From: Streptomyces sp. NBC_01451
GTDB lineage: Bacteria > Actinomycetota > Actinomycetes > Streptomycetales > Streptomycetaceae
Assembly (NCBI RefSeq): GCF_036227485.1
Contig: NZ_CP109479.1
Span: forward strand, 1,984,001 to 2,048,000
Reading direction: 5' to 3'
Length of the DNA: 64,000 nt
Shown here: positions 493-14,850 of the stretch, in pieces
How positions within the stretch are numbered: the first letter of the stretch is position 1
Layout: the number at the start of each line of letters is the position of its first letter
Translations under genes and position numbers: made by a program
Notes under the pieces: generated by a model
What the model was told of the DNA's origin: nothing
Database searches by the model: none
The model's input: only the letters and a program-made list of their open reading frames with translations

Positions 493-1476
493 TCATCGCG
501 CCCCCCTGACAACCCGTCCCACAGTGGTCCCCCGGTCCCAGACCACCACCCGCATCAGGGACTGCCACCACGACGGCCAGAGCCGTTCGGGAAGCGGCAC
601 CAGAGCCACCGTGTCGCAGCCGTGCTGTCTGATCCGGAGCAGGATCTCCCGCCATTCGCGTTCGGTGCTGCGATGCGGGTCGAACACCGGGCCGACCTTG
701 CCGAGGCCGGAGAGGATCAGTACCCGGGTGCCGTGCTGGGGCGGCCGGTAGGGCCGCCAGGTGCCGCGTGGGCCGGCGCCGACGCCTCGCGACGGGCAGT
801 CGGCGAAGCGCAGTACTCGTGTCCCGGCGACACCGACCAGACTGCGGACCTGGTCGATGACGTCCTCGACGTCCCGGGCGAAGGGTTCCGTCGAGGCGGA
901 GATGTCGGCGAGGATCTGCACTCCGTAGCGCAGGGTGGGCAGGGGACGGCGCGGGATCTCGTCGAGCGGCAGTCCGCGGGCCAGGTGGTCGGCGGCCCGT
1001 TCGACGTCGAGGTCGCCCTCGGACGTGACGCGGGCGAGAGCCGCGTGGAGCACGGCCGCGGTCGAGCGGGGTGCGAGGAGCGGCAGGTGCGGGGGCGCGG
1101 CGGCTTCGGCCATGGGGGTGGACCGGGGAGCGGGCAGCGGGTCGACGGCCCACCCGGTGCGGCGCGGTGGCCGGTGGCCGACGGGGACGAGCAGGGTGGA
1201 CTCCTCGTCGGCGCGCGCGGGCCTGGCGGCGTCGGGTGGTTCGGCGTACGACCGCGGGTCCCCGCCGTCGGTGGGGCCGCTCCCGCCCGGCGCGGGAGCC
1301 GGCTGCGGCAGGACCACCACGTCCGTCGGCGGTTCGGCGGGCGGTGCGGGTCCGGTGCCCGGGCCGAGGCCGAGGAGGGCGGCCACGCGTTCCCAGCCGG
1401 CCCTGTCGGTCATGCCGAGAGTCGTGGCGGCGCGGGCCACATCGCCGAGCCAGATCTCGCGCGGCAGCGGCCTCAC
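493..1476 (-). CDS. von Willebrand factor A (vWA) domain protein of a MoxR-vWA system
   Basis: 327 aa from GTG 1476, which overlaps the stop of the MoxR gene (GTGA), so the two are translationally coupled. The N-terminal 130 residues are low-complexity, Pro/Ala-rich. The C-terminal half holds a vWA fold: a beta strand followed by D191-I-S193-A-S195-T, a metal-ion-dependent adhesion site (DxSxS), and later the strand VLILSGLG. vWA proteins paired with MoxR AAA ATPases usually act as adaptors or chaperone-like partners that couple ATP hydrolysis to remodelling of a target. A longer upstream start at 1530 would overlap the ATPase by 58 bases and lacks a ribosome binding site. Cytoplasmic; partner inferred to be the ATPase directly upstream. 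Confidence 0.75.
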   Translation of the reverse strand: MRPLPREIWLGDVARAATTLGMTDRAGWERVAALLGLGPGTGPAPPAEPPTDVVVLPQPAPAPGGSGPTDGGDPRSYAEPPDAARPARADEESTLLVPVGHRPPRRTGWAVDPLPAPRSTPMAEAAAPPHLPLLAPRSTAAVLHAALARVTSEGDLDVERAADHLARGLPLDEIPRRPLPTLRYGVQILADISASTEPFARDVEDVIDQVRSLVGVAGTRVLRFADCPSRGVGAGPRGTWRPYRPPQHGTRVLILSGLGKVGPVFDPHRSTEREWREILLRIRQHGCDTVALVPLPERLWPSWWQSLMRVVVWDRGTTVGRVVRGAR

Positions 1477-2471
1477 CACTCGTCCCCCGCGATCTGCTGG
1501 CGCTTGATGAGGACGCAGTTCTTCAGCCACTCCCAGCGTTCGCTGCCGAGGCCGATGCCCAGGGTGAGGCAGGCGCGCAGCGCGTCCAGGAACTCGGCGG
1601 TGCTGGGTTCGCGCAGCCCGATGGTCATCGCCTGTTCCCGTACCTTGCCCAGTTCCACGGCGAGCGCCTCGGCCAGCCGCAGTTCACCGTCACCGGCGCT
1701 CCCGGGCCAGGTCTTCATGTGCTCCTGGGCGATCCGGACCAGACTCGGCACGTCGTGATCGGGAAGTGTCTCCACGACGCACCGCCGGAGAAAGGCCTGC
1801 GGAAGCTCCCGCTCGTCGTTGGTCGTGATGACGACGAGATGCCGGGAGAAGCGCGGGTCGACCTCTCCGGTGGGCCGCTCCAGCCTCACCTCGGTGCCGG
1901 TCTCCATGACGGTGAACCGGTGCGAACCCAGCGGCACCAGAAGGCTGTTGGGTACGTCGGGATCGGCCTTGTCGATCTCGTCGATGAGGACGACGGCGTG
2001 ATCGGGACTCCGGCCGGCGTTGACGTCGGCGGCCGGGTCCAGACACTCGGTCCCGGCCACCCCCTGTCCGGCCGGCCGCCCCCGCCGTCGCGCGGACTGG
2101 GGCGCCAAGGCCCACCACAGCACGCCGGGTTCGACGTACGAGGCGTCGTCGAGACCGACGGCCCCCTGCCGGTGTGCCTGCGCGTCGGCGAGCCGGCGGA
2201 CACTGTCGTAGCGCCACAACAGTTCGGTGGACCGGGTGGCGTAGGTGATGACGTGGTCGTAGTAGCGCCAGCCGCGCTGTCGGGCGATGAAGGGCGCCAG
2301 GGACGACTTGCCGGACCCCGGTCGGCCGCGCAGGAGCAATGGCCGTCCGGTGGCCAGGGCCACCATCACCGCCTCGTCGATGCGCGGGGACATCACGTAG
2401 ATCTCGCCGTCCCCCCGGTCCGGGCTGAGGAAGGCTCCCTCCGGGCTCCGGTGCTCCGCCATCGGGCTCAT
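1473..2471 (-). CDS. MoxR-type AAA+ ATPase (module A)
   Basis: 332 aa. Walker A is GRPGSGKSS (about residues 49-57), Walker B is VVLIDEIDKAD (about 160-170), and VVITTNDERELP followed by AFLRRC gives sensor 1 and the arginine-finger region, as in MoxR ATPases. ATG 2471 overlaps the stop of the TIR gene (ATGA); a second in-frame ATG at 2462 sits better relative to the GGGGGAGGGG stretch, so the start may be nine bases later. Residues 120-155 are an Arg/Gly-rich insertion not expected in the core fold. The next gene encodes a vWA protein, the standard MoxR partner, and a second MoxR gene lies at 13359-14432, so the system is present twice in this array. Confidence 0.85.
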   Translation of the reverse strand: MSPMAEHRSPEGAFLSPDRGDGEIYVMSPRIDEAVMVALATGRPLLLRGRPGSGKSSLAPFIARQRGWRYYDHVITYATRSTELLWRYDSVRRLADAQAHRQGAVGLDDASYVEPGVLWWALAPQSARRRGRPAGQGVAGTECLDPAADVNAGRSPDHAVVLIDEIDKADPDVPNSLLVPLGSHRFTVMETGTEVRLERPTGEVDPRFSRHLVVITTNDERELPQAFLRRCVVETLPDHDVPSLVRIAQEHMKTWPGSAGDGELRLAEALAVELGKVREQAMTIGLREPSTAEFLDALRACLTLGIGLGSERWEWLKNCVLIKRQQIAGDEW

Positions 2472-3784
2472 CCCCTCCCCCGGGACCGCCCCGGCCTGCC
2501 GTCGTCGCCGTCCCTGCCGTGCCCCCAGTCGTTCAGCATCCCGGAGGCGACCCTGATCGCGATGCGCTCGTCGTCGGCCCCGAACGGCGGCACCAGCAGC
2601 AGGGCGTCCGCGAGCCGTCCGGGTCTGGGGTCGTCGTCCGTCAGTTCGTCCTGCGGAATCAGAAGGACGTGCAGCCAGGGAATCTGACCGTGCAGCCAGT
2701 CGACGACGCGCTCCGCCTCGTCCAGGGAACAGTGTTCGGCGAAGATCACGACGTAGGTGTCGCAGTTCGGCAACTGCGGGGCGCTCGACAGCGGTTCCCG
2801 GTCGGTCATCCCGAACCGGGCCCTGATGGTCCGCTCGCACCGGTAGCGGAGCTCCTCCTCCGGGTCCTCCTCGCCCGGGGGCGGCGCGTTCACGACGATG
2901 GGCCAGTAGCGGCTGTAGTCCATGCAGAAGGCCCGGCCCAGGTAGTACTCCCCGGTGTCCGGGTTGCGCACGCTGAGGACGACCGTGCGGGGCCCGGAAC
3001 CGTTGTCCTCCGGCAGCACGTGCCGGGCGGAGGTGGCGTCGATCCAGACCGGCAGCACCAGATGGACGAGCTGGTCGAGAGCCGTGCTGTCCATGTGCCG
3101 GGCGACCTCCCCGATGGCGTTGCGCAGTGCCACGGCGTCGTGCGTGTGGAGCATCTGCGCGGCGAGGAAGCCGCAGCTGACATCCGTGACCGGAGCCCCG
3201 GCCAGATGCCGGTCGTGCATCCCGAGGGCACGTCCCATCCGCGCGAGCCGGCTCATCGTACGTACCTGGCTCAGCTGCGCGGTGATGTCCTCGGCCCAGC
3301 GCTGCACGGGGTCGTCGTCCTCGGGCATGGCCGGCAGCGGCGGGAACGCCCGGACGATGACCGCCGCGGCCTCGGCCGGGTCCGGCGGCTCCTTCTCGGC
3401 GTCGCCCGCCCCGGTCCGCTGCACGAGCTGAAGGGACATCAGATCCTCGAACCCGGCTCCGTCCAGGTCCTCGGGGGTCACGTCGCCGACGGGAGCGGGA
3501 AGGACGAAGAACGACCTGTTGAAGTGGTGCCGCCACATCAGGATGTCGACTTCCCGGTGCACCCAGAACGACCCGAGCGCCGAACGGTTGAGCAGGACCA
3601 CAGCGGCCCGGCACTCCAGCAGCCACTCGTACAGCCGCGGATGCCATTTCTCCCCGGCCGGAAGTCCGTCGGTGTCGACCAGGACGTCGTATCCGCGCTC
3701 ACGCAGCCCGTGTACGACCTGTGAGCGCACCGCCGTGGCGTAGGAGTCACCGCGCGTGCTGTGGCTGATGAACACCTTGTTCAA
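2468..3784 (-). CDS. TIR domain protein (TIR-like component of the FxSxx-type locus)
   Basis: 438 aa from a TTG start with a G-rich ribosome binding site; GTG at 3775 is an alternative. The first ~130 residues are a TIR domain: FISHS at residues 5-9, AVVLLNRSAL, then SFWVHRE with Glu78, the position of the catalytic Glu in NAD-cleaving TIR domains. The remaining ~300 residues have no recognised catalytic motif; they include a conserved-looking block around DTYVVIFAEHC. No membrane segment. The gene lies 46 bases after the module A radical SAM gene and overlaps the MoxR gene. TIR proteins in such operons are candidates for effectors or signal adaptors; NADase activity is inference. It may correspond to the TIR-like protein FxsC of FxSxx systems, which I cannot verify. 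Confidence 0.8.
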   Translation of the reverse strand: MNKVFISHSTRGDSYATAVRSQVVHGLRERGYDVLVDTDGLPAGEKWHPRLYEWLLECRAAVVLLNRSALGSFWVHREVDILMWRHHFNRSFFVLPAPVGDVTPEDLDGAGFEDLMSLQLVQRTGAGDAEKEPPDPAEAAAVIVRAFPPLPAMPEDDDPVQRWAEDITAQLSQVRTMSRLARMGRALGMHDRHLAGAPVTDVSCGFLAAQMLHTHDAVALRNAIGEVARHMDSTALDQLVHLVLPVWIDATSARHVLPEDNGSGPRTVVLSVRNPDTGEYYLGRAFCMDYSRYWPIVVNAPPPGEEDPEEELRYRCERTIRARFGMTDREPLSSAPQLPNCDTYVVIFAEHCSLDEAERVVDWLHGQIPWLHVLLIPQDELTDDDPRPGRLADALLLVPPFGADDERIAIRVASGMLNDWGHGRDGDDGRPGRSRGRG

Positions 3785-3830: not shown

Positions 3831-5048
3831 TCAGCGCTCCCGCAATCGTGCGTCACCGACGGCCGCGCTGAGCCGCCCGGCGATGTGCCTGATCAGATGG
3901 TCCAGGTCCTGGCAGTAGACGGACGGATTCAGGAATCCGGAGTCGGCCCGGAACCGGTGGGCGTAGTTTCCGCCCCCGCACACCTCAACAAGCGGACAGT
4001 CCCTGCACGTTGACGAGAGCGCGGCGAGGCCGAGCTGCCGCGCGGCGATGCCGGGATGGTCGAGCGCCAGGTCGAAGGGGTGCCGAAAGACGTCGAATCC
4101 GGTGACGGGAGCGCCCGCGTACGTGGTCTTGAGCGAGTCGACCTGCTCGATCGCCCCGTCGGTGTCGACGACAACCGCGACCACGGGCGACGTCCCGACC
4201 GCCTCTGTGGCACTGGGCAGCCCCATGAGCAGCCCGATGATCTCGGTGAACAGCCGAATGGCCGTACGCACCCGCCCGGCGTCGAACCACTGGTCGAAGA
4301 CGGTGGCCAGCCAGCGGCCGTAGAGCGCGGGGTCACCGGCGCCGGACGGCGGCGCGGTCCAGTTGGCGTGCGGCAGCAGCAGGTCGAGGCTCGGCGGCGC
4401 GAACGTCAGCAGCGACTCGTACACCTCGACGGCGTCCGTCGAGGGGTCGATGGTGCAGAGAATTCCGGCATACGAGTCCGGGTGCCTCCGGAGGATGCGT
4501 AACCCGCGGGTGGCGGCGGGCCAGGCGGGACGCCCCCGGCGGTCCACACGGCCCTTGTTGTGCCGGGCCAGCCCGCCGTCGAGACTGACCCCGATCCTGA
4601 TACCCGCGTCGGCGAGTTCGCGGACGACCGCGTCGGTGAGCAGGGTCCCGTTCGTCTGCATGGTGACATGCACCCGGCACGACTCACCGGCCCGTTCGGC
4701 CACGGCCCGTCGCACCGCGGCGACGTACCGGACGAGAAGTCCGGTTCCGGACAGCAAAGGTTCTCCGCCGTGCAGATTGACATGCACGTCGTGCAGTTGA
4801 TGAGCCTCGGCATGCTCGCCGATGCGCCGGGCTGCGGCGTCCATGACCCTCGCCGGCACGGCACGCGGACGCTCGCGCCAGCTCTGGTCGGGGCCCTCGT
4901 AGACGTAGCAGTAGGTGCAGGCGAGGTTGCAGCGGCTGTGGACCTTCAGCACGAACTGCTGGAAGGGGGTGGGGACGGCGCCGACGGCAAGCCTGACCGC
5001 CTGGACGTCCAGCCCCTGGACGGGCCACACGGCCGGTGCCGCTGTCAC
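3831..5048 (-). CDS. FxsB-family cyclophane-forming radical SAM/SPASM peptide maturase (module A)
   Basis: 405 aa from GTG 5048, which overlaps the stop of the precursor gene (GTGA). The radical SAM cluster motif is C40-N-L-A-C44-T-Y-C47, followed by HGGEPLLSG and CxxCP...VCGGGNYAHRF, the SPASM-like auxiliary cluster region typical of FxsB enzymes. FxsB-type enzymes join an aromatic side chain to the beta carbon of a residue two positions on, forming a three-residue cyclophane. Coupling to the 76-aa precursor makes that peptide the likely substrate. About 59% of residues appear to match the second maturase at 8418-9734 by eye, so the two are paralogues. An upstream extension to 5357 exists but would bury the whole precursor gene and is not credible. 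Confidence 0.9.
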   Translation of the reverse strand: MTAAPAVWPVQGLDVQAVRLAVGAVPTPFQQFVLKVHSRCNLACTYCYVYEGPDQSWRERPRAVPARVMDAAARRIGEHAEAHQLHDVHVNLHGGEPLLSGTGLLVRYVAAVRRAVAERAGESCRVHVTMQTNGTLLTDAVVRELADAGIRIGVSLDGGLARHNKGRVDRRGRPAWPAATRGLRILRRHPDSYAGILCTIDPSTDAVEVYESLLTFAPPSLDLLLPHANWTAPPSGAGDPALYGRWLATVFDQWFDAGRVRTAIRLFTEIIGLLMGLPSATEAVGTSPVVAVVVDTDGAIEQVDSLKTTYAGAPVTGFDVFRHPFDLALDHPGIAARQLGLAALSSTCRDCPLVEVCGGGNYAHRFRADSGFLNPSVYCQDLDHLIRHIAGRLSAAVGDARLRER

Positions 5049-5275
5049 CGGATCAGGGACGGCCGCTCGACCGGGACGTAGGGCGCGTCCTCGTAGAACG
5101 CGCCGCGCGCCGGGGAGCCGACCCGCCACAGAAGAGTCCCGGCCACCTCGGCCAGGACGGGATACTCGGTATCCGCAGCCAAGATGGCCAGATCCAGACC
5201 GTCGAAATCCGGCAACGACTGGTTGGTTCGAAACGAGGCGCTCGGAGAAGACGCCACGCCCTGAGGAACAGGCAA
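5045..5275 (-). CDS. RiPP precursor peptide A with [FY]YED[AS]P core (FxsA-like leader)
   Basis: 76 aa from TTG 5275 behind a clear GGAGAAGG ribosome binding site; the stop overlaps the start of the radical SAM gene. The leader (about residues 21-51) has LPDFDGLDLAIL...YPVLAEV...LLWR, the L-x-D...L...PVL..V...L..R pattern of FxSxx-COOH peptides. There is no terminal FxSxx. Instead residues 60-65 read F-Y-E-D-A-P (bases 5081-5098), followed by an 11-residue tail beginning YVPVE. Y61-E-D63 fits an aromatic-x-Asp cyclophane site. Precursor B ends with the near-identical Y-Y-E-D-S-P, which supports this as the modified core. The substrate role is inferred from position, leader and the shared motif. 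Confidence 0.8.
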   Translation of the reverse strand: MPVPQGVASSPSASFRTNQSLPDFDGLDLAILAADTEYPVLAEVAGTLLWRVGSPARGAFYEDAPYVPVERPSLIR

Positions 5276-5319
5276 GCCTTCTCCAGGTTAGATGGAAAAT
5301 CGCGCGTGTGACGGGCGTG

Positions 5320-5348
5320 ACCCTAGCAGCCTGTCGACGGTGTGTCAC
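5320..5348 (-). promoter_or_regulatory. Candidate sigma-70-type promoter for precursor A operon
   Basis: On the minus strand GTGACA (5348-5343), a 17-base spacer and TAGGGT (5325-5320) match the TTGACA / TAGRRT consensus of the main Streptomyces sigma factor. It lies in the 98-base gap between the FxsT stop and the precursor TTG start, giving a leader of about 37 bases before the start. It would let module A be transcribed separately from module B. Sequence match only. Confidence 0.5.
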
Positions 5349-5373
5349 ATGACGCACCGGTAACGTGAATCGG

Positions 5374-8343
5374 TCATGTCGGCTGCGGTTCGAAGTCCCA
5401 GTAGGGGCGGTCCCGGCGGCTCACCGCCTTGGTATGGGGATGGCCGGAACCGTACTTCTCCGTGAGGGCGTGCAGGGCCTCCTGTTCCAGCCTCGCCGCC
5501 TCGTCACCCCGTCGCAGCGATCGCAGATCAGCGGAGAGCGCGGCCTTGCAGGACAAGCTCAGAGGGTGGTTCTCGCCGAGGACCGCTGTGGCCCGTTCCA
5601 GGGTCGCGGCGCTGAGCTGCGCGGCACCTTCCTCGTCTCCGGCGTAGTTGCGGGCGCCGGAGAGGTTGAGGGCGCAGCCGAGGGACCACGGGTGGTCGGC
5701 GCCGACCCCTGCGGCCATCCCGCTCCAGGCGGTCTCGGCGATCCTCAGGGCTTCCTCGCGCTCACCGTACTTCCACAGGACGAGGCCGATATTGCCTGTT
5801 GTACCGATCGAGAAGGGGTGCTCGGGCCCGACCAGGTCGTGGTAGCCGTTGGCCACCACGTCGGCCAGTTTTCGCGCCTCGTGCAGATCTCCGTGTTCGC
5901 GCAGGAAGGTGGCGTAGTCGGCCTGGGCGTGCAGGGTGTCGGGGTCGCGCGAGCCGCGCTTGCGGAGGCTGCGTTCCACGACGCGCAGCATGGAGCGCTT
6001 GGCGTTGTCCAGGTCCCCGCCCCGGCGAAGGCACAGTGCCAGGTTGTGCTCGGCGAGGAGGGTGTTCGGGTGCCATTGGCCCACGCCCTCGGAGAACAGC
6101 CGGTGGTTGCGCCGCTGCCGGGACGTGGCCTCGGCGTGGTCGCCGAGGAGGCGGAGGGTCCAGGCGTAGTAGAGCCCTGAGATCAGCGTCTTGCGGTGGG
6201 ACTCGCCCAGTTCCTTCTGGCGCGCGTCAAGGATCTTCCGGTGCAGTGCGGACGCCTGCCGGTACTGGCCCAGCAGCACCAGCGACAGAGCGAGGTTGGA
6301 CTTCTCCTGGAAGTCCTTCTGGGGGTCGACGCTGTCGATCTGCGCGGCTGCTTCGAAGAGCTGATGTGCCTCCCGGTATCGGCCCAGGACGTTCAGGGTG
6401 CCGCCCAACCCGTTCTTCGCGCGGAGCAGTTCGGGATCGTCGGCCGTCCTGACCTCGGCCAGCCGGTCCACGACGGCGCGCCCCACGGCCTCGGCCTCGT
6501 TGAGACGTCCGACGCGACGCAGCATGTTGGCGTGCTGGTGGGTCAGCTGGAGCATGTCGGGGTCGTCCGGTGCCAGACGGCTCCGCCAGCGGGCCAGGGT
6601 CTGTTCGCAGAGCGCGAGTCCGTCCCGGCCCTCCTCACGTGATTTCAGGTACTCGACGCAGTTCAGGACCAGTCTGCGCACTACCGGCCTGGTGCTGTCG
6701 AGCGCCCCGGAGGTCTCCAACTGTGCGAGCAGATCGGCGTATCTGGGCCATTGCTCGGCGTTGCCGGGATCCCGCGGGTCGGCACCGGCCAGCACCTCGC
6801 AGGCCACGAAGGACATCGTCTCCCGACGCTCCTCCGGCAGGGTGCTGGTCAGGAAGCTGTGGTACAGCCGGTGCATGGTCGCGCCTCCCACTAGGGGTTC
6901 GCCCTCCGACGAACTCTCGTAGGCGAGTTGTACCGCAGTGGACTCCGACAACCGCTGCAGCGCGGAGTACCAGCGGATCGGGTCGGCCGCGAGAGAGGCG
7001 AGATGGCTGGGCAGGTGGGACGGGTGGGCGGTCTGGATGAGGTGCACCGGAATGGCGTCCGGCGAGAACAACGCGAACAGGCGGAGCAGCTCGGAAGCCT
7101 CCGGGTAGTTCGCCTCCAGGGTGTTGAGCGTGATCGACCAGCTGGTCTGGAACCCCATGGGGTAGTCGTCCGAGATACGGATGCCGATCTGGTTGGCCCC
7201 GCCCTTGCTGATCAGTTCGATGTAGTCCTTGGCGGGCATCCTGTTCGCGTCCAGCCAGGCGGCCGTCTGGGCCAGCAGCAGCGGCAGGTCCTGCACGGCG
7301 TCCGCGAGCCTGTCGGCGTCGTGCTCGGTCAGGCGGGGGGCGCGGCGGCGGACGTACGCGATCGACTCCTCCCGGATGAACGGCAGGATGGGGATCTCCG
7401 AGAGGCGGCCCGAGGTGGCCCAGTCCTGGGTCAGTGTCGTCACCAGAACATGGCCGTTGCCCTCCGGCAGCAGATCCTCGACCTGTGCCATGTCGTCCGC
7501 GCTGTCGAAGATCACCAGCCAGCGTCCGTGCGGTTTCCCGGTGCGCAGCGCCTCGTGCACGGCGCGGATCCGCTCACCCGGTTCCGAGCCCACCCACAGC
7601 TGCATCCGGGGTGCCAGATCGGCGAACTGTTCGCGGGCGGTGGCGCGGAACCCGGCGTTGACCCACCAGACGACGTCGTAGTTGTTTCCGAACCTGTGTG
7701 CGTACTCGATCGCGATCTGGCTCTTGCCCACGCCCGAGATTCCGCGCAGCGCGACTCTGGAAACGCCGTCCCCGTCCCGGTTCAGCCGGGAGTGCAGTTC
7801 GTCGAGCGCCCAGTCACGACCGGTGAAACGAAGGTTCCGCCGGGGGATGTTGACCACGGCCGGCGGATCGTTGGGGAATCGCGGGGCTGGGCCACCGCCC
7901 AGCGGCGTCTCCACGGCCGGCAGTCCCAGCCGGACGAGAATGCGCCGCCTGGCCTCACCGGAGTCCAGGTCCCGCAGGTCGACGGGGAGCAGGCGCTCGC
8001 CGCCGGGCGGGATGGCACGGGTGGCCACACTGACCGCGGCGAACCGGTCCTCGTTCTCCGGGACCACCTCGCGAAGGGCGGTGATCCACTCCTCGTCGCT
8101 GCGCGGCCCCAGGTTGAAGTACCAGTCGTCCAGAACGAGCAGAATCCGCCCGGGCGCGTCCAGCAGACTGCGCAGCGCCCGGGTCAGCGACACACTGACG
8201 GGCGGGTCCCAGCGCAACAGTGTCGTCCGATGGCCCAACTGCTCCAGCTGGTGCGCGATCCAGGTGGCCCACGGCCGGTTGAACCCCGCGTAGCTGATGA
8301 CGTAATGGCCATGGGACCCGGCTCCCCCGGCCCGGTCCGCCAT
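5374..8343 (-). CDS. fxsT: FxSxx-COOH system TPR protein (FxsT type): TIR-like, NB-ARC/STAND NTPase, TPR
   Basis: 989 aa from ATG 8343, chosen because TTGGGAGACG lies 7-9 bases upstream; GTG 8379 has no ribosome binding site. Domain order: TIR/SEFIR-like domain from about residue 12 (HYVISYAGFNRPWATWIA), a STAND NTPase with Walker A GISGVGKSQ near residue 220 and Walker B-like WLVIFDSADD near 285, then an all-helical TPR region over the last ~400 residues with repeats such as EAEAVGRAVVDRLAEVR and EEALRIAETAWSGMA. This architecture is that of the TPR protein linked to FxsB maturases. STAND proteins are ATP-driven sensors; the TPR arm would recognise a ligand, possibly the modified peptide (inference). 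It follows the module B maturase by 74 bases. Confidence 0.85.
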   Translation of the reverse strand: MADRAGGAGSHGHYVISYAGFNRPWATWIAHQLEQLGHRTTLLRWDPPVSVSLTRALRSLLDAPGRILLVLDDWYFNLGPRSDEEWITALREVVPENEDRFAAVSVATRAIPPGGERLLPVDLRDLDSGEARRRILVRLGLPAVETPLGGGPAPRFPNDPPAVVNIPRRNLRFTGRDWALDELHSRLNRDGDGVSRVALRGISGVGKSQIAIEYAHRFGNNYDVVWWVNAGFRATAREQFADLAPRMQLWVGSEPGERIRAVHEALRTGKPHGRWLVIFDSADDMAQVEDLLPEGNGHVLVTTLTQDWATSGRLSEIPILPFIREESIAYVRRRAPRLTEHDADRLADAVQDLPLLLAQTAAWLDANRMPAKDYIELISKGGANQIGIRISDDYPMGFQTSWSITLNTLEANYPEASELLRLFALFSPDAIPVHLIQTAHPSHLPSHLASLAADPIRWYSALQRLSESTAVQLAYESSSEGEPLVGGATMHRLYHSFLTSTLPEERRETMSFVACEVLAGADPRDPGNAEQWPRYADLLAQLETSGALDSTRPVVRRLVLNCVEYLKSREEGRDGLALCEQTLARWRSRLAPDDPDMLQLTHQHANMLRRVGRLNEAEAVGRAVVDRLAEVRTADDPELLRAKNGLGGTLNVLGRYREAHQLFEAAAQIDSVDPQKDFQEKSNLALSLVLLGQYRQASALHRKILDARQKELGESHRKTLISGLYYAWTLRLLGDHAEATSRQRRNHRLFSEGVGQWHPNTLLAEHNLALCLRRGGDLDNAKRSMLRVVERSLRKRGSRDPDTLHAQADYATFLREHGDLHEARKLADVVANGYHDLVGPEHPFSIGTTGNIGLVLWKYGEREEALRIAETAWSGMAAGVGADHPWSLGCALNLSGARNYAGDEEGAAQLSAATLERATAVLGENHPLSLSCKAALSADLRSLRRGDEAARLEQEALHALTEKYGSGHPHTKAVSRRDRPYWDFEPQPT

Positions 8344-8417
8344 GAGATCGTCTCCCAACTCTGTGCCGTCCGGCCGCACCCGGAACCAGGCACGGTCATC
8401 TGGTCGGCTCGTCGCCG

Positions 8418-9734
8418 CTAGTCAGGCATTGCCATGGGAGGCAGCGCCGAAACGGCCGGAACAGGACGTTCGCCTCCGATCGCCGGCCCCAGTGCCGCCG
8501 CGACATGCCGGATCAGCCGCTCCAGGTCATGGCAGTACACCGATGGATGCCTGAAACCACTTCCTTCACGATAGCGATGGGCATAATTTCCGCCACCGCA
8601 GACAGCTATGACGGGACAGGTCCGACAGGTGACCCCCAGGGCCGCTACGCCGATCTGCCGAGCTGCCACGCCCGGATGGTCCAGCGACTCGTCGAAGGTG
8701 TTGCGGAAGACGTCCAGTCCAGTGACCACAGCCCCCTCGTATGTTTGCTTGAGGGAATCCAATTGCTCGATCTGCCCGTCGGTCTCCACCACGATCGCCG
8801 CCGTCGGCGACAGCCCGACGGCCTCCAGCGCGCTGGGCAGCCCCAGCAGCAGGGCGATGATCTCGGAGAAGATGCGGATCCGTGGCGGCGGGCCCTCGCC
8901 CGAGCGGCTGCCCCACCACAGGTCGAAGGCCGCGGCCAGCCAGTCCCCGTAGGGGGTGGCGCCCCGGCTGCCGGTCCGGGCCGTCTCGGGAGCGCGCACC
9001 GGCAGTCCCGGTGGCGGGTTCGACCAGTTGCCGTGCGGCAGCAGCAGGTCGAGCACCGGGGGCCGCAGGGCGGCGAGGGAGCGGTAGACCTCCCCCGGGT
9101 CGGCCGTGACGTCGATCGTGCAGAGCAGTCCGGCGTACGACTGGGGGTGGCGGGCGAGCAGGCGCGCCGCCCGCAGGGCCCGGCGCCAGGACGGGCGCCC
9201 CGCATGGTCCACCCGGCGTCTGTTGAACGCGGGGGTGCCCCCGTCGAGGCTCAGGCCGACCCGGATGCCCTCCTGGGCCAGCAGGGCCAGGGCCCGTTCG
9301 GTGAGCAGGGTGCCGTTCGACTGCACGGTCGCCCGCAGTGCGCAGTCGGCCGGCAGGGCGGCCCGGACCGTGCGGACGTAGTCCACCAGGACGCCGGGGC
9401 CCGACAGCAGTGGCTCACCCCCGTGCAGAGCGACTCGGACCTCGCCCAGTCCGTGGGTGCGCGCGTGTTCGGCGATCCGGTGGGCCGTCTGTCGCATGAC
9501 GGCGGCGGACACCTTGGGCGGATGGTCGCGCCAGGAGCCGTCCTCACCATGGTAGATGTAGCAGTACGTGCAGGTCAGGTTGCATCTGCTGTGCACCTTG
9601 AGGGTGAACTGACGCATCGGCACCGAACGCAGACCGGTACGGCGCAGTGCCTGGACGTCCAGCACCGACAGGGGCCACGGAGCGAGGAACCCGCCCAGGG
9701 CGGAATGGCTCTGTTCGCACGAAACAGGGAACAT
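8418..9734 (-). CDS. FxsB-family cyclophane-forming radical SAM/SPASM peptide maturase (module B)
   Basis: 438 aa; ATG 9734 is preceded by GGGGAGG at a good distance. The radical SAM motif is C51-N-L-T-C55-T-Y-C58 after LKVHSR, then HGGEPLLSG, and near the C-terminus CRTCPVIAVCGGGNYAHRYREGSGFRHPSVYCHD, split here as the CxxC, CGGGNYAHRY and YCHD elements of FxsB-type SPASM domains. It closely resembles the module A enzyme along its whole length, with an extra ~20-residue insertion around residues 230-250. Its own precursor lies 59 bases upstream. Whether the two enzymes are specific or interchangeable cannot be read from sequence; the shared substrate core suggests cross-processing is possible. 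Confidence 0.9.
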   Translation of the reverse strand: MFPVSCEQSHSALGGFLAPWPLSVLDVQALRRTGLRSVPMRQFTLKVHSRCNLTCTYCYIYHGEDGSWRDHPPKVSAAVMRQTAHRIAEHARTHGLGEVRVALHGGEPLLSGPGVLVDYVRTVRAALPADCALRATVQSNGTLLTERALALLAQEGIRVGLSLDGGTPAFNRRRVDHAGRPSWRRALRAARLLARHPQSYAGLLCTIDVTADPGEVYRSLAALRPPVLDLLLPHGNWSNPPPGLPVRAPETARTGSRGATPYGDWLAAAFDLWWGSRSGEGPPPRIRIFSEIIALLLGLPSALEAVGLSPTAAIVVETDGQIEQLDSLKQTYEGAVVTGLDVFRNTFDESLDHPGVAARQIGVAALGVTCRTCPVIAVCGGGNYAHRYREGSGFRHPSVYCHDLERLIRHVAAALGPAIGGERPVPAVSALPPMAMPD

Positions 9735-9793
9735 CGCACCACCTCCCCAGGGCAGCGCACGCTCGTCCGACGCGGCCGGGAATCAGCCCCGCG

Positions 9794-10033
9794 TCAGGGC
9801 GAGTCCTCGTAGTACGCCACGGGCGACTCGGTTGCGCGGGACCTCGGCTCCAGTTCCGCGAGAACGGCGTTCAACGCGGGACAACTGCCCGCCCTCGGCA
9901 GTTCCCCCCACATGACGCCCCGGAGATCCTGAAGTGGTTCATCCCACGCGGTCGGCTCATCGGTCGCAGGACTCAACACGCTGTGCTCCTCCCCGGCACG
10001 TCGGCCATCGGGAATTACCCGTGCGGGGAACAC
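9794..10033 (-). CDS. RiPP precursor peptide B ending in YYEDSP
   Basis: 79 aa from GTG 10033, the only start between the upstream gene's stop (10087) and the conserved part, preceded by AGAAGAAAGG about 7 bases away. The leader has L-Q-D-L-R-G...L...CPALNAVLAELEPR, which aligns with precursor A (LxDxxG...L......P.L..V...L..R). The protein ends Y74-Y-E-D-S-P79 (bases 9797-9814) directly before the stop. The codons for YED and P match precursor A almost base for base. The frame can be extended upstream to 10198, but that part lies inside the preceding gene. Candidate substrate of the maturase immediately downstream. Confidence 0.75.
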   Translation of the reverse strand: MFPARVIPDGRRAGEEHSVLSPATDEPTAWDEPLQDLRGVMWGELPRAGSCPALNAVLAELEPRSRATESPVAYYEDSP

Positions 10034-10086: not shown

Positions 10087-13000
10087 TCAGGCCGAACCAT
10101 TGCCGCCCGCGCGGGCCGTCAGCGCCCGCATCCGCCCGAGGGTCGCGAGGCCCTCCGGGTGCCGCGCGTCCCCGCCCATGGCCTGCCAGTCGGCCCATGC
10201 GGCCCGGTACGCGTCGAGGGCGTGGGCCGGGCCCGCCGTGCGTTCCAGGACCGTGCCGCGCCGGTGCAGGGCGCGGGCGCGGACGAGGAGTTCACCGGCC
10301 GCCTCGGCGGCGGTCGCGGCTCGCCGGTAGGACTCGGCGGCGCGGTCCTCGTACTCGGTCGTGGCGCTCGGCGGGCGGGCCAGGACAAGCAGCGCGTCGC
10401 CACGTGCCAGCCAGGCCAGCGCCTCCGTGCGGGTGTCCCGCCCGTTCTGGGCGCCCCTGGCCGCGCGGGCCAGGATCCACTCGGCCTCGTGGAGGTCGGT
10501 GAGCGAGCCGCCCGACTCGTGGTGACGGATCAGGGCCCGGCCGAACAGGAGCCCGCGAGCCGGCAGCCGTGGGTCGCTGGCGGGGGTCTGGGCGAGGGCG
10601 GCCCGCAGGGTGCGTACGGCTTCCGTGGCCACCTCCACGTGTCCGTCGTGGGCCGCCCTGCTGAGCAGTGCGCTGCCACGCGCCGCGAGCAGTTCCGGGC
10701 GGCGCGGGTCGTCGGTGCTCAACTGCGCCTGCGCGCGGGCGAAGCAGGCATCCGCGGTGTCGAGTTCGGCAGGTTCGGCGGTGCGCGTCCAGCGGGCGGT
10801 GTGCGCCTCGGCCAGCCGCCACAGGGCGCGCAGCCTCAACTCGCCCGTGTTCGCCTCTGTTCCGGCCGCCCGCAGCGCCTCTTCCAGCGCCGCGACGACC
10901 TTCTCGGCCCCCGGGTCGCCCGCCACCACCCCTCTGGCCTCCGCAAGTTCCAGCCACGCCCGGCAGACGACCCCCCGCGCCTCCCCCGCCCGCTCCGCCG
11001 GCCCCGCCGCCGACTCGAAGTCCGCCGCGGCCTGTACGGCGAGGGCCCGCGCCTCGTCGGCCGAGTCGCGCTCGCGCGCGTTGGCGCACAGTTCCATCAG
11101 CAGGCCGCCACGGGCCAGCAACGCCGAGCCGGGGAGAGGGTGTTCGCCCGGCCAGCCCTCCAGCAGGGCGTCGAGCCGCACCTGGGCCCCGTACAGCAGC
11201 CGTCGGTCGCCGAGGAGCCGGTAGCGGGCGCGGACCACCTCGACGACGCAGAGCAGTACGTCGAGCAGGGGGTGCGGCTCGGAGCGCACCAGGGCGTACG
11301 CGCGCTCCAGGCTCTCGGCGGCCTCGGCCAGTGCACGGGTCCTCGTCCCGTCGTCGGGCTCGGTGGTGGCCCTCGCCCGGAGCACCTTGCCGAGGACGAG
11401 ATGCGCGTGGGCCGGCGGCGCACCCGCGGGGTCCGCCGCCGCGCGGACGGTCTCCTCCGCCTCTCGCAGGACCGCTCGATCCCGGTGGATGTCCCAGAGG
11501 CAGAGCAGGCATTCGGCGAGGAGGGCCGCCGTCTCCGCGGAGGGCTCCGTCGAGCGGACCATGCGTACGGCGTCCCAGAGGTCGCGGATGCCGCCCAGCC
11601 GTTCGTAGCGGGCGAGGCGGCTACGGGCCAGCCGGAGGGCCAGTGATTGCGAGTGCGGCGGGTCGACGGCGGGGTTCGCGGTGCCGTCGACCTCTCTCGG
11701 CTGGAATCTGCGCAGCACTCTGCGGGGTACGTCGGCGAAGGGCTGCGGGACCGGCCGCCCGGATGTCTCCTCGGTCCCGTCCGTCCGTGCACCGGCCCGG
11801 ACCGCCGTCCCCGACAAGTGGCCGATCACCACCGCCGGGAAGTTCTGGGCCCGCCCTCCCCACACCCGTTCCAGATAGCGCGAGCACTGCTCCAGCACCG
11901 CGAGCGCCTCGTCCAGGGCCAGTCCGTTCAGCAGCAAGTCCCTTACCCCCGGGGCGAATTCGTACCAGGGGCCGGGACCGTCGTTCTCGTCCGCCACCTC
12001 CACCAGCAGGTCGCTCAGCAGCACCTCGGCCAGTTCGACCGGGCCGGTCCCGGGCAGCAGGGCGCGCTGGACCAGCTGCATCACGGGGTAGGACAGCGGC
12101 GCCGCCGAGAGCCAGACCGCGAGGCGGCGGGCGGCGGGAGAGGCGGCGGCGCGGAAGTCCTCGACCAGTTGGTCCGGGGTGCGGTCGGGGCGGCGGCCGG
12201 GGGCCGTCCCGCTGTCCGTGGGCCCGACCATGGCCACTGAGGCCGCCGACGCGCCCCCTGGTCGTTCCGCAAGCAAACGTGCCCAGGCGCCCAGCGCGGC
12301 GGGGGTCGGCGGCAGCACGGGGACCGGTGACGCCCCGCCGTCCCCGGGATCCGGGTCACGGAACGGCCGGAAGCCTGGCATCCCGCCGGGGCTCGCGGCG
12401 CGCCGCAGGGTGCCGGCCTCGGTGGGCAGCAGGGTCCGCGGCCACAGACGCGTGGGCAGCGGCTGTACGACGGCCAGCGGGCCCGCGCTCAGCCGCCGGT
12501 GGAGCAGCCGCTGGGCGGCGCCGTGTCGCCACAGCGGGCCCGAGCAGTCGCTGAGCAGCAGGGTGACGGTCCGGCCGCTCGGGTCGCGCAGGCCGTCCGC
12601 CGGGGCGAGCCATTCGCTTCCGCCCGCCCGGCACAGCACGCCGACTCCGCCGTCGGGGTGCGGGCGAAGCCGGTGGACGGTCACCGAACGAAAGGCGCCG
12701 GACTGTTCGCAGGCGAGGCGCAGCTCCTCCAGGGTGCGCGCCCAGGCGCCCATCGACGGTGAGTCGTCCACGAGCAGTTGCATCCGGGCCTGTCGGCGCC
12801 CGTCGGTCCGGAAGACCGGCAGGGCACAGTCCGCGACAGCACTCGCCTGGGCCGTGCGGGACTCGTCGAGCACGTCGTCGTCGCGGGGCCGTGGCGGTCC
12901 GGCCGGCGGCAGCAGGCCCTGGAGGGGGCGCAGGGCGTGCCCCAGGGACAGCAGGTCCGGGAAGGCCGGCGCCCTCGGTACGAGGATCTCGGCGCCCGCC

Positions 13001-13362
13001 GCGTCGCAGACCGGCTCCGCCCGCTGTTCCCGCTGCCCCCGCTGTTCCCGCAGCGCCTGCTGATTCCGCAGCTCCTGCTGCTCCTGCTGTTTCCGCTGTT
13101 CCCGGACCACCGCGAGGAGTTGCGGGGGCCTCGGACGGTCCGGCGGGTCCGGCGGGAGGGCGTCCTCTCCGGACCGTGGGCCGTCCACGGTCTCGGTGCC
13201 GGGACCTCTCCCCGCACCGGTCTCCGCGTCGGCCATCCGCCCGGCCAGCCAGAGCGCGTCGGCGAGTTCGGTGGCGCCCGGCCGGGCGCCCGCCACCGCG
13301 AGGCGCCGGATCAGCGTGCCCAGGGGGTCCGACCGGTCCGCGGACCCCGCGTCCTCGCTCAC
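10087..13362 (-). CDS. SAV_2336-type vWA and TPR protein (module B)
   Basis: 1091 aa from GTG 13362, overlapping the MoxR stop (GTGA). An N-terminal block (DPLGTLIRRLAVAG...ELADALWLAGRMA) matches the SAV_2336 N-terminal domain. A Gln/Arg/Glu-rich coiled stretch follows (about residues 75-115). A vWA domain then carries LLVDDSPSMG, a DxSxS metal site, and LLLSDCSGPLW. The second half is helical repeat of TPR type (for example EAETVRAAADPAG, LVLGKVLRARA, EAAADFESAAG). The MoxR ATPase immediately upstream is the expected partner. The peptide gene begins 53 bases after its stop, which ties the vWA/MoxR pair to the RiPP genes. No membrane or signal segment. Confidence 0.8.
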   Translation of the reverse strand: MSEDAGSADRSDPLGTLIRRLAVAGARPGATELADALWLAGRMADAETGAGRGPGTETVDGPRSGEDALPPDPPDRPRPPQLLAVVREQRKQQEQQELRNQQALREQRGQREQRAEPVCDAAGAEILVPRAPAFPDLLSLGHALRPLQGLLPPAGPPRPRDDDVLDESRTAQASAVADCALPVFRTDGRRQARMQLLVDDSPSMGAWARTLEELRLACEQSGAFRSVTVHRLRPHPDGGVGVLCRAGGSEWLAPADGLRDPSGRTVTLLLSDCSGPLWRHGAAQRLLHRRLSAGPLAVVQPLPTRLWPRTLLPTEAGTLRRAASPGGMPGFRPFRDPDPGDGGASPVPVLPPTPAALGAWARLLAERPGGASAASVAMVGPTDSGTAPGRRPDRTPDQLVEDFRAAASPAARRLAVWLSAAPLSYPVMQLVQRALLPGTGPVELAEVLLSDLLVEVADENDGPGPWYEFAPGVRDLLLNGLALDEALAVLEQCSRYLERVWGGRAQNFPAVVIGHLSGTAVRAGARTDGTEETSGRPVPQPFADVPRRVLRRFQPREVDGTANPAVDPPHSQSLALRLARSRLARYERLGGIRDLWDAVRMVRSTEPSAETAALLAECLLCLWDIHRDRAVLREAEETVRAAADPAGAPPAHAHLVLGKVLRARATTEPDDGTRTRALAEAAESLERAYALVRSEPHPLLDVLLCVVEVVRARYRLLGDRRLLYGAQVRLDALLEGWPGEHPLPGSALLARGGLLMELCANARERDSADEARALAVQAAADFESAAGPAERAGEARGVVCRAWLELAEARGVVAGDPGAEKVVAALEEALRAAGTEANTGELRLRALWRLAEAHTARWTRTAEPAELDTADACFARAQAQLSTDDPRRPELLAARGSALLSRAAHDGHVEVATEAVRTLRAALAQTPASDPRLPARGLLFGRALIRHHESGGSLTDLHEAEWILARAARGAQNGRDTRTEALAWLARGDALLVLARPPSATTEYEDRAAESYRRAATAAEAAGELLVRARALHRRGTVLERTAGPAHALDAYRAAWADWQAMGGDARHPEGLATLGRMRALTARAGGNGSA

Positions 13363-14432
13363 CTCGGCGGCCGGTTCAGTGGCCGCATGAGCTGTTCGGC
13401 CAGGTGGGCGCGGGTGCCCGGTTCCTCGTCCTGGGCGTGGCGGGTGAGGTAGACGGCGTTGAGGAGCTGGTCGGCCGCCCGTTGTTCGCCCGGTCTGCGT
13501 TCGAGGAACCGGGCGATGACGTCGGCATGCTGCTCGGCCGCGTCCTCGCCGAAGTGGGCGCGGACCATGGCGGCGAGCCGGTCCTCGTCCGGCGGTTCCA
13601 GATGGAGATGGACGCAACGCCTCAACAGCGGTACCGGGAAGTCGCGTTCACCGTTGCTGGTGAGGACGATGAAGGGGAAGGCGCGGCAGCGGATCCGGCC
13701 TTCGTCGACCTCCACGGAGCGCCCGTCGTGGTCACGGACCCGTACGGACGGGTGGTGTTCGGCGATCCGCTCCAGCTCGGGGATGCCGAACTCGCCTTCC
13801 TCCAGGACCCCGAGGAGGTCGTTGGGCAGGTCGATGTCGCTCTTGTCGAGCTCGTCCACCAGGAGCACCCGGGGGCGTTCCGTGGGGAGCAACGCGGTTC
13901 CGAGCGGGCCCAGTCGGAGGTAGCGGCCGATGCCCTGGGCGAGCAGGTCCGTCTCGTCCGGCGGCTGCCGGCCGGGCCTCCGCGACCCGGCCGGGCTCTC
14001 CGTGCCCTCCGGTCGCCCGCGCGGGCGCGTGATCTGGAGGTCCTGAAGGCGGCCCAGGGCGTCGTATCTGTAGAGGCCGTCGGTGAGTTGGGTGCGGCTG
14101 ACGATGGGCCAGCGAAGTACCCGGCCCAGGCCCAGTTCGTGTGCCACGGCGTGGGCGAGCGTGCTCTTGCCGCTGCCCGGTTCGCCGGTGACGAGCAGCG
14201 GGCGGCGCAGATACAACGCCGCGTTGACCAGCTCCAGTTCGGCCGGGGTGGGCCGGTAGTGCTCGGCGAAGGCACGGCTCCGGCCGAGCCGTCGGGCGGA
14301 GACCTCGTCGACGGGCGCCGGCGGGGGGATCGGCGGGCCGCCGTCGAAGCGGCGCCAGGGGGGCGGGTCCGGGAGCCGGTCCACGCCGTCGTGCGGTTGT
14401 CCCGTGCCTCGGTAGATCAGCCACTCGTTCAC
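13359..14432 (-). CDS. MoxR-type AAA+ ATPase (module B)
   Basis: 357 aa from GTG 14432, chosen because GAGGAG lies six bases upstream; a longer frame to 14573 has no such signal. Walker A GEPGSGKST (about residues 83-91), Walker B VLLVDELDKSD (about 186-196), sensor 1 IVLTSNGERDFP and then LLRRCVH complete a MoxR-type ATPase. Residues 130-150 are an Arg/Pro-rich insertion, as in the module A paralogue. It is the first gene of the long minus-strand run, coupled to the vWA-TPR gene. MoxR ATPases use ATP hydrolysis to remodel partner complexes; the target here is unknown. Confidence 0.85.
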   Translation of the reverse strand: MNEWLIYRGTGQPHDGVDRLPDPPPWRRFDGGPPIPPPAPVDEVSARRLGRSRAFAEHYRPTPAELELVNAALYLRRPLLVTGEPGSGKSTLAHAVAHELGLGRVLRWPIVSRTQLTDGLYRYDALGRLQDLQITRPRGRPEGTESPAGSRRPGRQPPDETDLLAQGIGRYLRLGPLGTALLPTERPRVLLVDELDKSDIDLPNDLLGVLEEGEFGIPELERIAEHHPSVRVRDHDGRSVEVDEGRIRCRAFPFIVLTSNGERDFPVPLLRRCVHLHLEPPDEDRLAAMVRAHFGEDAAEQHADVIARFLERRPGEQRAADQLLNAVYLTRHAQDEEPGTRAHLAEQLMRPLNRPPR

Positions 14433-14850
14433 GTCACGCTCCTCGGTGCAGGACGGGCGGGGCTGCCTGATCACCGGGGAAAGAGACGGGTGGGGCGGAG
14501 TACGACGGGTTGGCGAACACCAGGGCACGAAAGGGAACCGGAGGTCCCATTTCCCCTTCCAATCCCCCTCCACACCGGCAATCCTTCTGACACTACCCAG
14601 GACCGACCGAGGAGGATCACCCGCGCGCGGCAGACCCCGTACCGGCTCGTCGACCCTGGTTCCACATGGTTGCTCACTTGACTACCAGGCGTCACATCCG
14701 ATTGGCTCCGCCCCAGCGAAAGTCGGACAGTCGGTGCACGTCACCGGACGATCGCGCAGATTCCGCCGTACCCACACCCCACTTGCCCCCCTCCCCTTCC
14801 TGTCCCATGCCCCTCTCCTCCTCGGCCGCGCAGCGAGGTGCCGCACTTCC
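14433..14850. other. Divergent intergenic region between MoxR-B and sugar-binding lipoprotein genes
   Basis: About 420 bases without a credible gene. It should hold the promoters of the minus-strand conflict/RiPP array and of the plus-strand lipoprotein gene. TTGACT occurs near 14678 but no well-spaced -10 partner is obvious on either strand. The frames open through it have no ribosome binding site and no protein-like composition. Confidence 0.4.

Follow-up and report, generated by a model that had tools for sequence, protein, structure and literature searches.

Bacterial conflict systems with a gene order like that of the locus studied here have been described for FxSxx peptides by Kaur et al. 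(2020; PMC7159879), who proposed that the peptide acts as a toxin or as a signal that amplifies the conflict system. The available part of that paper distinguishes four peptide types, namely, FxSxx, RxD, acidic, and FtsH-type, and counts a metallopeptidase as a core component; a YxD type is not among these four. The peptide class with a Tyr-x-Asp tail and its crosslinking are already known from two sources. In NCBIfam, the class is represented by NF041709, "YxD-tail cyclophane-containing RiPP peptide" (RiPP, ribosomally synthesized and post-translationally modified peptide), and the part available to us of a review (PMC11002830, citing Sugiyama et al., 2022) states that the enzyme YxdB makes a C3(Tyr)-Cbeta(Asp) linkage. 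Here we analyze a locus of Streptomyces sp. NBC_01451 in which two small peptides, preA1 and preA2, are each encoded next to a radical SAM/SPASM maturase gene of the FxsB family. The locus lies in a stretch of 64,000 nt (contig NZ_CP109479.1, positions 1,984,001 to 2,048,000), which is called the window below and to which all positions refer. The motif itself is thus no discovery; the best explanation of the whole locus, which we hold with good confidence, is that both peptides are precursors of YxD-tail triceptides and that they are located in two old conflict-type modules of the TIR-NB-ARC kind. The two precursor-maturase pairs are the following:

5045..5275, minus strand: preA1, open reading frame of a YxD-tail RiPP precursor (NF041709, 48.4 bits), with counterparts in loci L087 and L045
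3831..5048, minus strand: FxsB1, radical SAM/SPASM maturase (TIGR04269, 439 bits), with the CxxxCxxC and SPASM-type cysteines retained
9794..9979, minus strand: preA2, YxD-tail RiPP precursor of 61 aa from a GTG, ending in ...VAYYEDSP (NF041709, 45.7 bits), with a homologue in Streptomyces sp. GQFP
8418..9734, minus strand: FxsB2, radical SAM/SPASM maturase (TIGR04269, 422.7 bits)

The sequence-only reading had placed the two peptides at 5045-5275 and 9794-10033. Both are present, but the second range includes 54 bases ahead of the probable start of preA2, a GTG at 9979 that is preceded by GGAGGAG and that aligns with the start of a 57-aa homologue (P0049) from Streptomyces sp. GQFP. The preA1 frame extends from a TTG at 5275 to the stop at 5045 (76 aa); its start is uncertain, the protein database containing both the 76-aa form and a 45-aa form that starts later. 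It consists of the leader LPDFDGLDLAILAADTEYPVLAEVAGTLLWR, the core AFYEDAP, and the tail YVPVERPSLIR, the C-terminal part reading ...AFYEDAPYVPVERPSLIR. preA1 and FxsB1 share 4 bases, at the stop of the former and the GTG start of the latter, and 59 bases lie between preA2 and FxsB2. The same reading was right in that the leader pattern LxDxxG...P.L..V...L..R is common to both peptides, that neither ends in FxSxx (the tails are FYEDAP... and YYEDSP), and that each precursor adjoins an FxsB-family gene of its own, both maturases passing the TIGR04269 cut-off of 370 bits. In the plus-strand translations of the two peptide regions, no YED-type motif was found. FxsB1 and FxsB2 are 58% identical, and both are intact open frames with all cluster cysteines; the closest solved sequence of FxsB2 is the ChlB radical SAM domain 9gm3 (E 1.1e-70).

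NF041709 is the sole NCBIfam match of preA1 and preA2, and in both peptides the alignment runs to model position 47 of 47, that is, it includes the leader and the Tyr-x-Asp tail. TIGR04268 (FxSxx-COOH) matches neither peptide of the window. Among the relatives collected below, NF041709 matches all 30 members, hand-picked for diversity out of 63, to which it was applied, four of which also match TIGR04268. A protein search yielded 91 relatives, many of which, including the GQFP counterpart of preA2, carry the YxD-tail name in public genomes. YED peptides without homologues, the outcome that would have spoken against the earlier proposal, are therefore ruled out. In genome samples, NF041709 has matches in 71 of 199 Streptomyces genomes (above its cut-off in 10) and in 16 of 396 genomes of the phylum (above it in none); many of the weak matches comprise the leader only, and in the phylum sample the tail (position 47) is reached only in Streptomyces. 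FxsB exceeds its own cut-off in 124 of the 199 Streptomyces genomes.

For the comparative analyses we assembled 98 loci, namely, the window, 20 stretches chosen by YxD score or as the other FxsB loci of the same genome, and the best 77 of at least 593 pattern matches; the set leans to close Streptomyces relatives. A profile search located a precursor ahead of 105 of the 107 maturase frames. The two misses are the other FxsB genes of this genome (L052 and L053), which contains four FxsB-family genes above the cut-off; no precursor was found for these two by profile or by eye. After removal of the truncated L096 and of four duplicates (L098, L130 twice, and L145), 102 maturases entered the tree, and all 102, FxsB1 and FxsB2 included, contain CxxxCxxC and CxxCx5C. 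The 102 rows correspond to 95 different precursors, two rows having no precursor and five repeating one.

The position of the predicted ring follows from the alignment of these precursors. In the 63 different precursors of the YxD clade, the second aromatic residue is Tyr in 48, Phe in eight, and His in seven, and the residue two positions on is Asp in 60 and Asn in three, whereas the residue before the second aromatic varies (Y44, F9, H3, A2, D2, and V, Q, and S once each). The first count used the pattern aromatic-x-[DNSQ]; a recount on a motif-free alignment, in which the two-unit precursors L043 and L047 were reduced to their last unit, gave the same numbers at i and i+2. In this alignment, aromatic-x-[D/N] occupies one register in 63/63 precursors, which rules out a chance match of the motif, and the same columns of the 32 other precursors hold Phe followed, at +2, by Asn (16), Ser (15), or Gln (1). 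With the second position always aromatic, the +2 residue always Asp or Asn, and the first position variable, the alignment favors Tyr-Glu-Asp as the predicted ring, with only the second aromatic of FYED or YYED taking part. A link between the first aromatic and Glu instead seems very improbable to us: an aromatic residue occupies the first position in 56 of the 63 precursors, which suggests some constraint, but the other seven have Ala, Asp, Val, Gln, or Ser there, and the 32 Phe-x-[N/S/Q] relatives have their Phe in the column of the second aromatic. Thus, the peptides were correctly placed in a non-FxSxx branch of FxsB precursors with Tyr-Glu-Asp as the predicted ring, a placement that rests on homology, here on NF041709, the common register, and the YxdB chemistry as given in the part of the review available to us. 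Of the proposed modified core [FY]-Y-E-D-[AS]-P, only Y-E-D would form the ring, the first aromatic being outside it.

Some precursors of the clade depart from the usual layout. A natural His-x-Asp variant, with His in place of the ring Tyr (YHEDSP), is present in L088, L089, L094, L043, L090, L113, and L122. No maturase residue could be assigned to the preference for Tyr, Phe, or His: the seven His-core rows all have a residue other than Gly at position 334, yet five Tyr/Phe-core rows differ there as well, and the comparison comprises one to two independent pairs. Two tail motifs per precursor, YFSDAP with YFADAP or YFADTP, occur at L150:9798-9899 and from L158:3010-3144 onwards; perhaps these peptides carry two rings each. 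In L043 and L047, two leader-core units lie within one frame.

Both precursor-maturase pairs of the window belong to a run of ten minus-strand genes from 14573 to 493, which appears to have arisen by the joining of two old modules. In the order of transcription, module A would comprise the genes for a MoxR-like protein, a SAV_2336-type protein, preA2, FxsB2, and a TIR-NB-ARC-TPR protein, and module B those for preA1, FxsB1, a TIR protein, a MoxR-like protein, and a vWA-like protein, with a second NB-ARC-TPR homologue next in line, right beyond the window edge.

In the tree of 102 maturases, the YxD-type enzymes form one clade of 68 rows (support 100/97), three of which have precursors of the YFEN/YFDN types, and the Phe-x-N/S/Q types fall outside it. 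The first split within the clade separates ten module B rows, with FxsB1, from 58 module A rows, with FxsB2 (100/95 each). Since FxsB1 and FxsB2 split at the base of a single YxD clade, the two modules of the window are, by this phylogeny, old paralogues and not independent inventions. The claim of two independent copies thus did not hold: independent invention is ruled out by the single clade, and a recent duplication by the basal split together with the 58% identity of the maturases. Eight of the ten module B rows have a module A maturase beside them in tandem, the exceptions being L048 and L105, and in 8/8 of these tandem loci the module B precursor contains FY[ED]D, three of the eight having identical tails. 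The full module B run (TIR, MoxR-like, and vWA-like) was found in tandem only in the window, L087, and L045 (the same locus as L130); in the other five tandems, no matches to these three genes were detected within the DNA covered.

Decay of one module, such that only one of the two peptides is still modified, could be suspected from the fast evolution of the precursors. Between the window and L087, the ratio of non-synonymous to synonymous substitution rates (dN/dS) is 0.64 and 0.37 for the precursors, calculated over 46 and 56 codons only, compared with 0.14 and 0.13 for the maturases. We regard such decay as improbable, given the low dN/dS of FxsB1 and FxsB2, their open frames with all cluster cysteines, and the FY[ED]D motif in the module B precursor of all eight tandem loci.

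The two core types also differ in an accompanying gene. A frame with an HExxH motif within 2.6 kb downstream of the maturase is present in 28/28 scorable loci with a precursor of the Phe-x-[N/S] type and in 0/62 scorable YxD-clade loci (one YxD locus and four loci with other precursors were too short to score), and its presence or absence corresponds to one change on the maturase tree. Across all 68 YxD-clade rows, the 2.6 kb downstream (less in two rows, where the flanks are shorter) contained no HE..H string at all; with a looser scan, several YxD loci showed such strings elsewhere or in another frame, but never in this interval downstream of a YxD-clade maturase. In the window, the minus-strand frames of at least 100 aa that end below 15000 contain no HE..H string. 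As there is no adjoining HExxH enzyme, YxD products are expected to escape hydroxylation or cleavage by such an enzyme. The pairing of core type and HExxH gene would predict which products undergo further oxidation.

The remaining genes of the run are the following:

13359..14573, minus strand: MoxR-like AAA ATPase of module A (AAA domains; syntenic homologues; start uncertain)
10087..13617, minus strand: SAV_2336-type protein of module A, probable vWA component (NF041121, 401.8 bits; DDSPS motif; start uncertain; no Pfam match)
5374..8379, minus strand: TIR-NB-ARC-TPR protein, in NCBIfam "FxSxx-COOH system TPR protein" (NF040586, 773.4 bits; TIR_2, 63.4; TPR_12, 114.7; NB-ARC, 25.1 bits)
2468..3784, minus strand: stand-alone TIR-domain protein of 438 aa (TIR_2, 41.8 bits; W-V-x-x-E invariant)
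1473..2471, minus strand: MoxR-like AAA ATPase of module B (AAA_5, 51.7 bits; start located)
493..1530, minus strand: probable vWA protein of module B (DISAS, a DxSxS motif; syntenic homologues; no family match)

Gaps between the ten genes range from -259 to +107 bases, the -259 depending on uncertain starts. The gene order of module A is widely conserved: among its 58 rows, a SAV_2336 homologue is located within 2.5 kb upstream in 56, an NB-ARC-TPR homologue within 3.5 kb downstream in 56, and a MoxR-like gene within 8 kb upstream in 48. Module B probably continues past the window edge, because a second NB-ARC-TPR homologue, which scores 952 bits to the TIR-NB-ARC-TPR protein of the window, follows the vWA-like gene just below position 1 (L164:16592-19999, minus strand).

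In the stand-alone TIR protein, W-V-x-x-E is retained in 16/16 aligned homologues, and its Glu aligns with the Glu of two solved bacterial TIR domains. This Glu may be the catalytic residue of an NADase. The TIR part of the TIR-NB-ARC-TPR protein lacks the pattern, as judged by eye. When the stand-alone TIR sequence was compared with the PDB, no match was found at E 0.1; its profile matched 11 chains, mostly TIR domains (best E 0.0013). Beyond the TIR domain, this protein has an unassigned C-terminal part of about 300 residues, and its gene occupies the place, ahead of MoxR and vWA, that VMAP has in the ternary systems. PADLOC, applied to seven of the ten genes (FxsB2 and the peptides were left out), gave generic-domain matches only, the best being the viperin model on FxsB1 (46.0 bits). 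Beside the YxD module B of L105 (Streptomyces smaragdinus RB5), a further module at L105:5055-6534 has an HExxH frame, no FxsB match, and a short frame containing ...GYAQPDDDDKEDK..., similar to the acidic type of peptide in the available part of Kaur et al. (2020).

In the mechanism that we propose, the leader (LxD..., then HPVL..V...L..R or variants) would present the tail to the adjoining FxsB maturase, which would form a C-C bond between the aromatic ring at the second position (for Tyr, at C3 as predicted) and the Cbeta of the Asp two residues on. The product predicted from homology and the literature would be a three-residue Tyr-Glu-Asp cyclophane, formed with the loss of 2 H. Judging from gene context, the peptide is likely to serve as an internal signal or trigger of TIR-NB-ARC conflict systems. 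More tentatively, the YxD clade may be a branch of the FxSxx systems with a single origin. On that branch, a Phe-x-[N/S] core would have given way to aromatic-x-Asp-x-Pro together with the loss of the HExxH enzyme, and the unhydroxylated cyclophane would act within the cell on the adjoining TIR-NB-ARC-TPR protein, as its ligand or safety catch. In the tandem pair, one operon would keep two peptide-receptor channels with separate recognition.

Many characterized RiPPs are exported. Accordingly, the product could be an exported signal or antibiotic, with the NB-ARC and TIR genes as immunity genes or incidental neighbors, and the YxD loci L039 and L163, in which SAV_2336 and NB-ARC-TPR homologues are absent from the 20-21 kb covered, would be compatible with this. 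We nevertheless consider export unlikely: no transporter or peptidase model matches any of the ten genes between 493 and 14573 at a score above a curated cut-off, and an NB-ARC-TPR homologue follows in nearly all module A rows, as given above. For YxD-tail precursors within conflict-type modules, the reading that we prefer, these two loci are one of several adverse points. Both precursor scores are below the NF041709 cut-off of 55 bits (48.4 bits, E 6.8e-13, for preA1; 45.7 bits, E 4.7e-12, for preA2), so that, by profile score, the peptides are close relatives of the family below the curated line and not certified members. The predicted ring chemistry is borrowed by analogy from YxdB (WP_226048651.1), which is absent from our maturase tree, and a role in conflict systems has been predicted in print for the FxSxx relatives and is applied here by analogy. 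Pfam VMAP does not match the TIR, vWA-like, SAV_2336, or MoxR proteins in a search from which most matches above E 0.1 were filtered out. A DxSxS motif is present in both probable vWA proteins and a Pfam match in neither; the SAV_2336 protein, apart from this motif and NF041121, has no Pfam vWA or TPR match. Finally, we found no gene in the ten-gene run that would account for release of the core.

The YxD branch that lacks HExxH and is linked to NB-ARC, together with its tandem pairs, appears to deserve further study; searches of the open-licence literature gave no account of this pairing. A 2022 study by Phan and Morinaka on actinobacterial triceptide maturases may cover part of it. With a TIR-NB-ARC-TPR homologue following the gene of a crosslinked peptide in 56 of 58 module A rows, a role of cyclophanes in bacterial NLR-like systems becomes testable, and the tandem loci offer a natural test of cross-talk between two maturases and two receptors.

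Compared with the systems in the available part of Kaur et al. (2020; PMC7159879), the window and its relatives show the ternary order of MoxR, vWA, peptide, radical SAM (with SPASM), and downstream TIR-AP-ATPase-TPR, if the SAV_2336-type gene is counted as the vWA gene, in whose place it lies; they differ in the YxD peptide, in the absence of the HExxH (MPTase) gene, and in that VMAP was not found. With the FxSxx-COOH or FxsA-FxsB systems (TIGR04268, TIGR04269), they share the maturase family, the leader, and the gene order, but the tail in the window is Tyr-x-Asp-x-Pro instead of Phe-x-Ser-x-x-COOH and the HExxH gene is missing. The NF041709 peptides and the YxdB triceptide have in common with the window the leader, the Tyr-x-Asp tail, and the adjoining FxsB-type maturase; what sets the window pair apart, beside its scores below the cut-off, is the presence in tandem of two copies, each with a maturase of its own.

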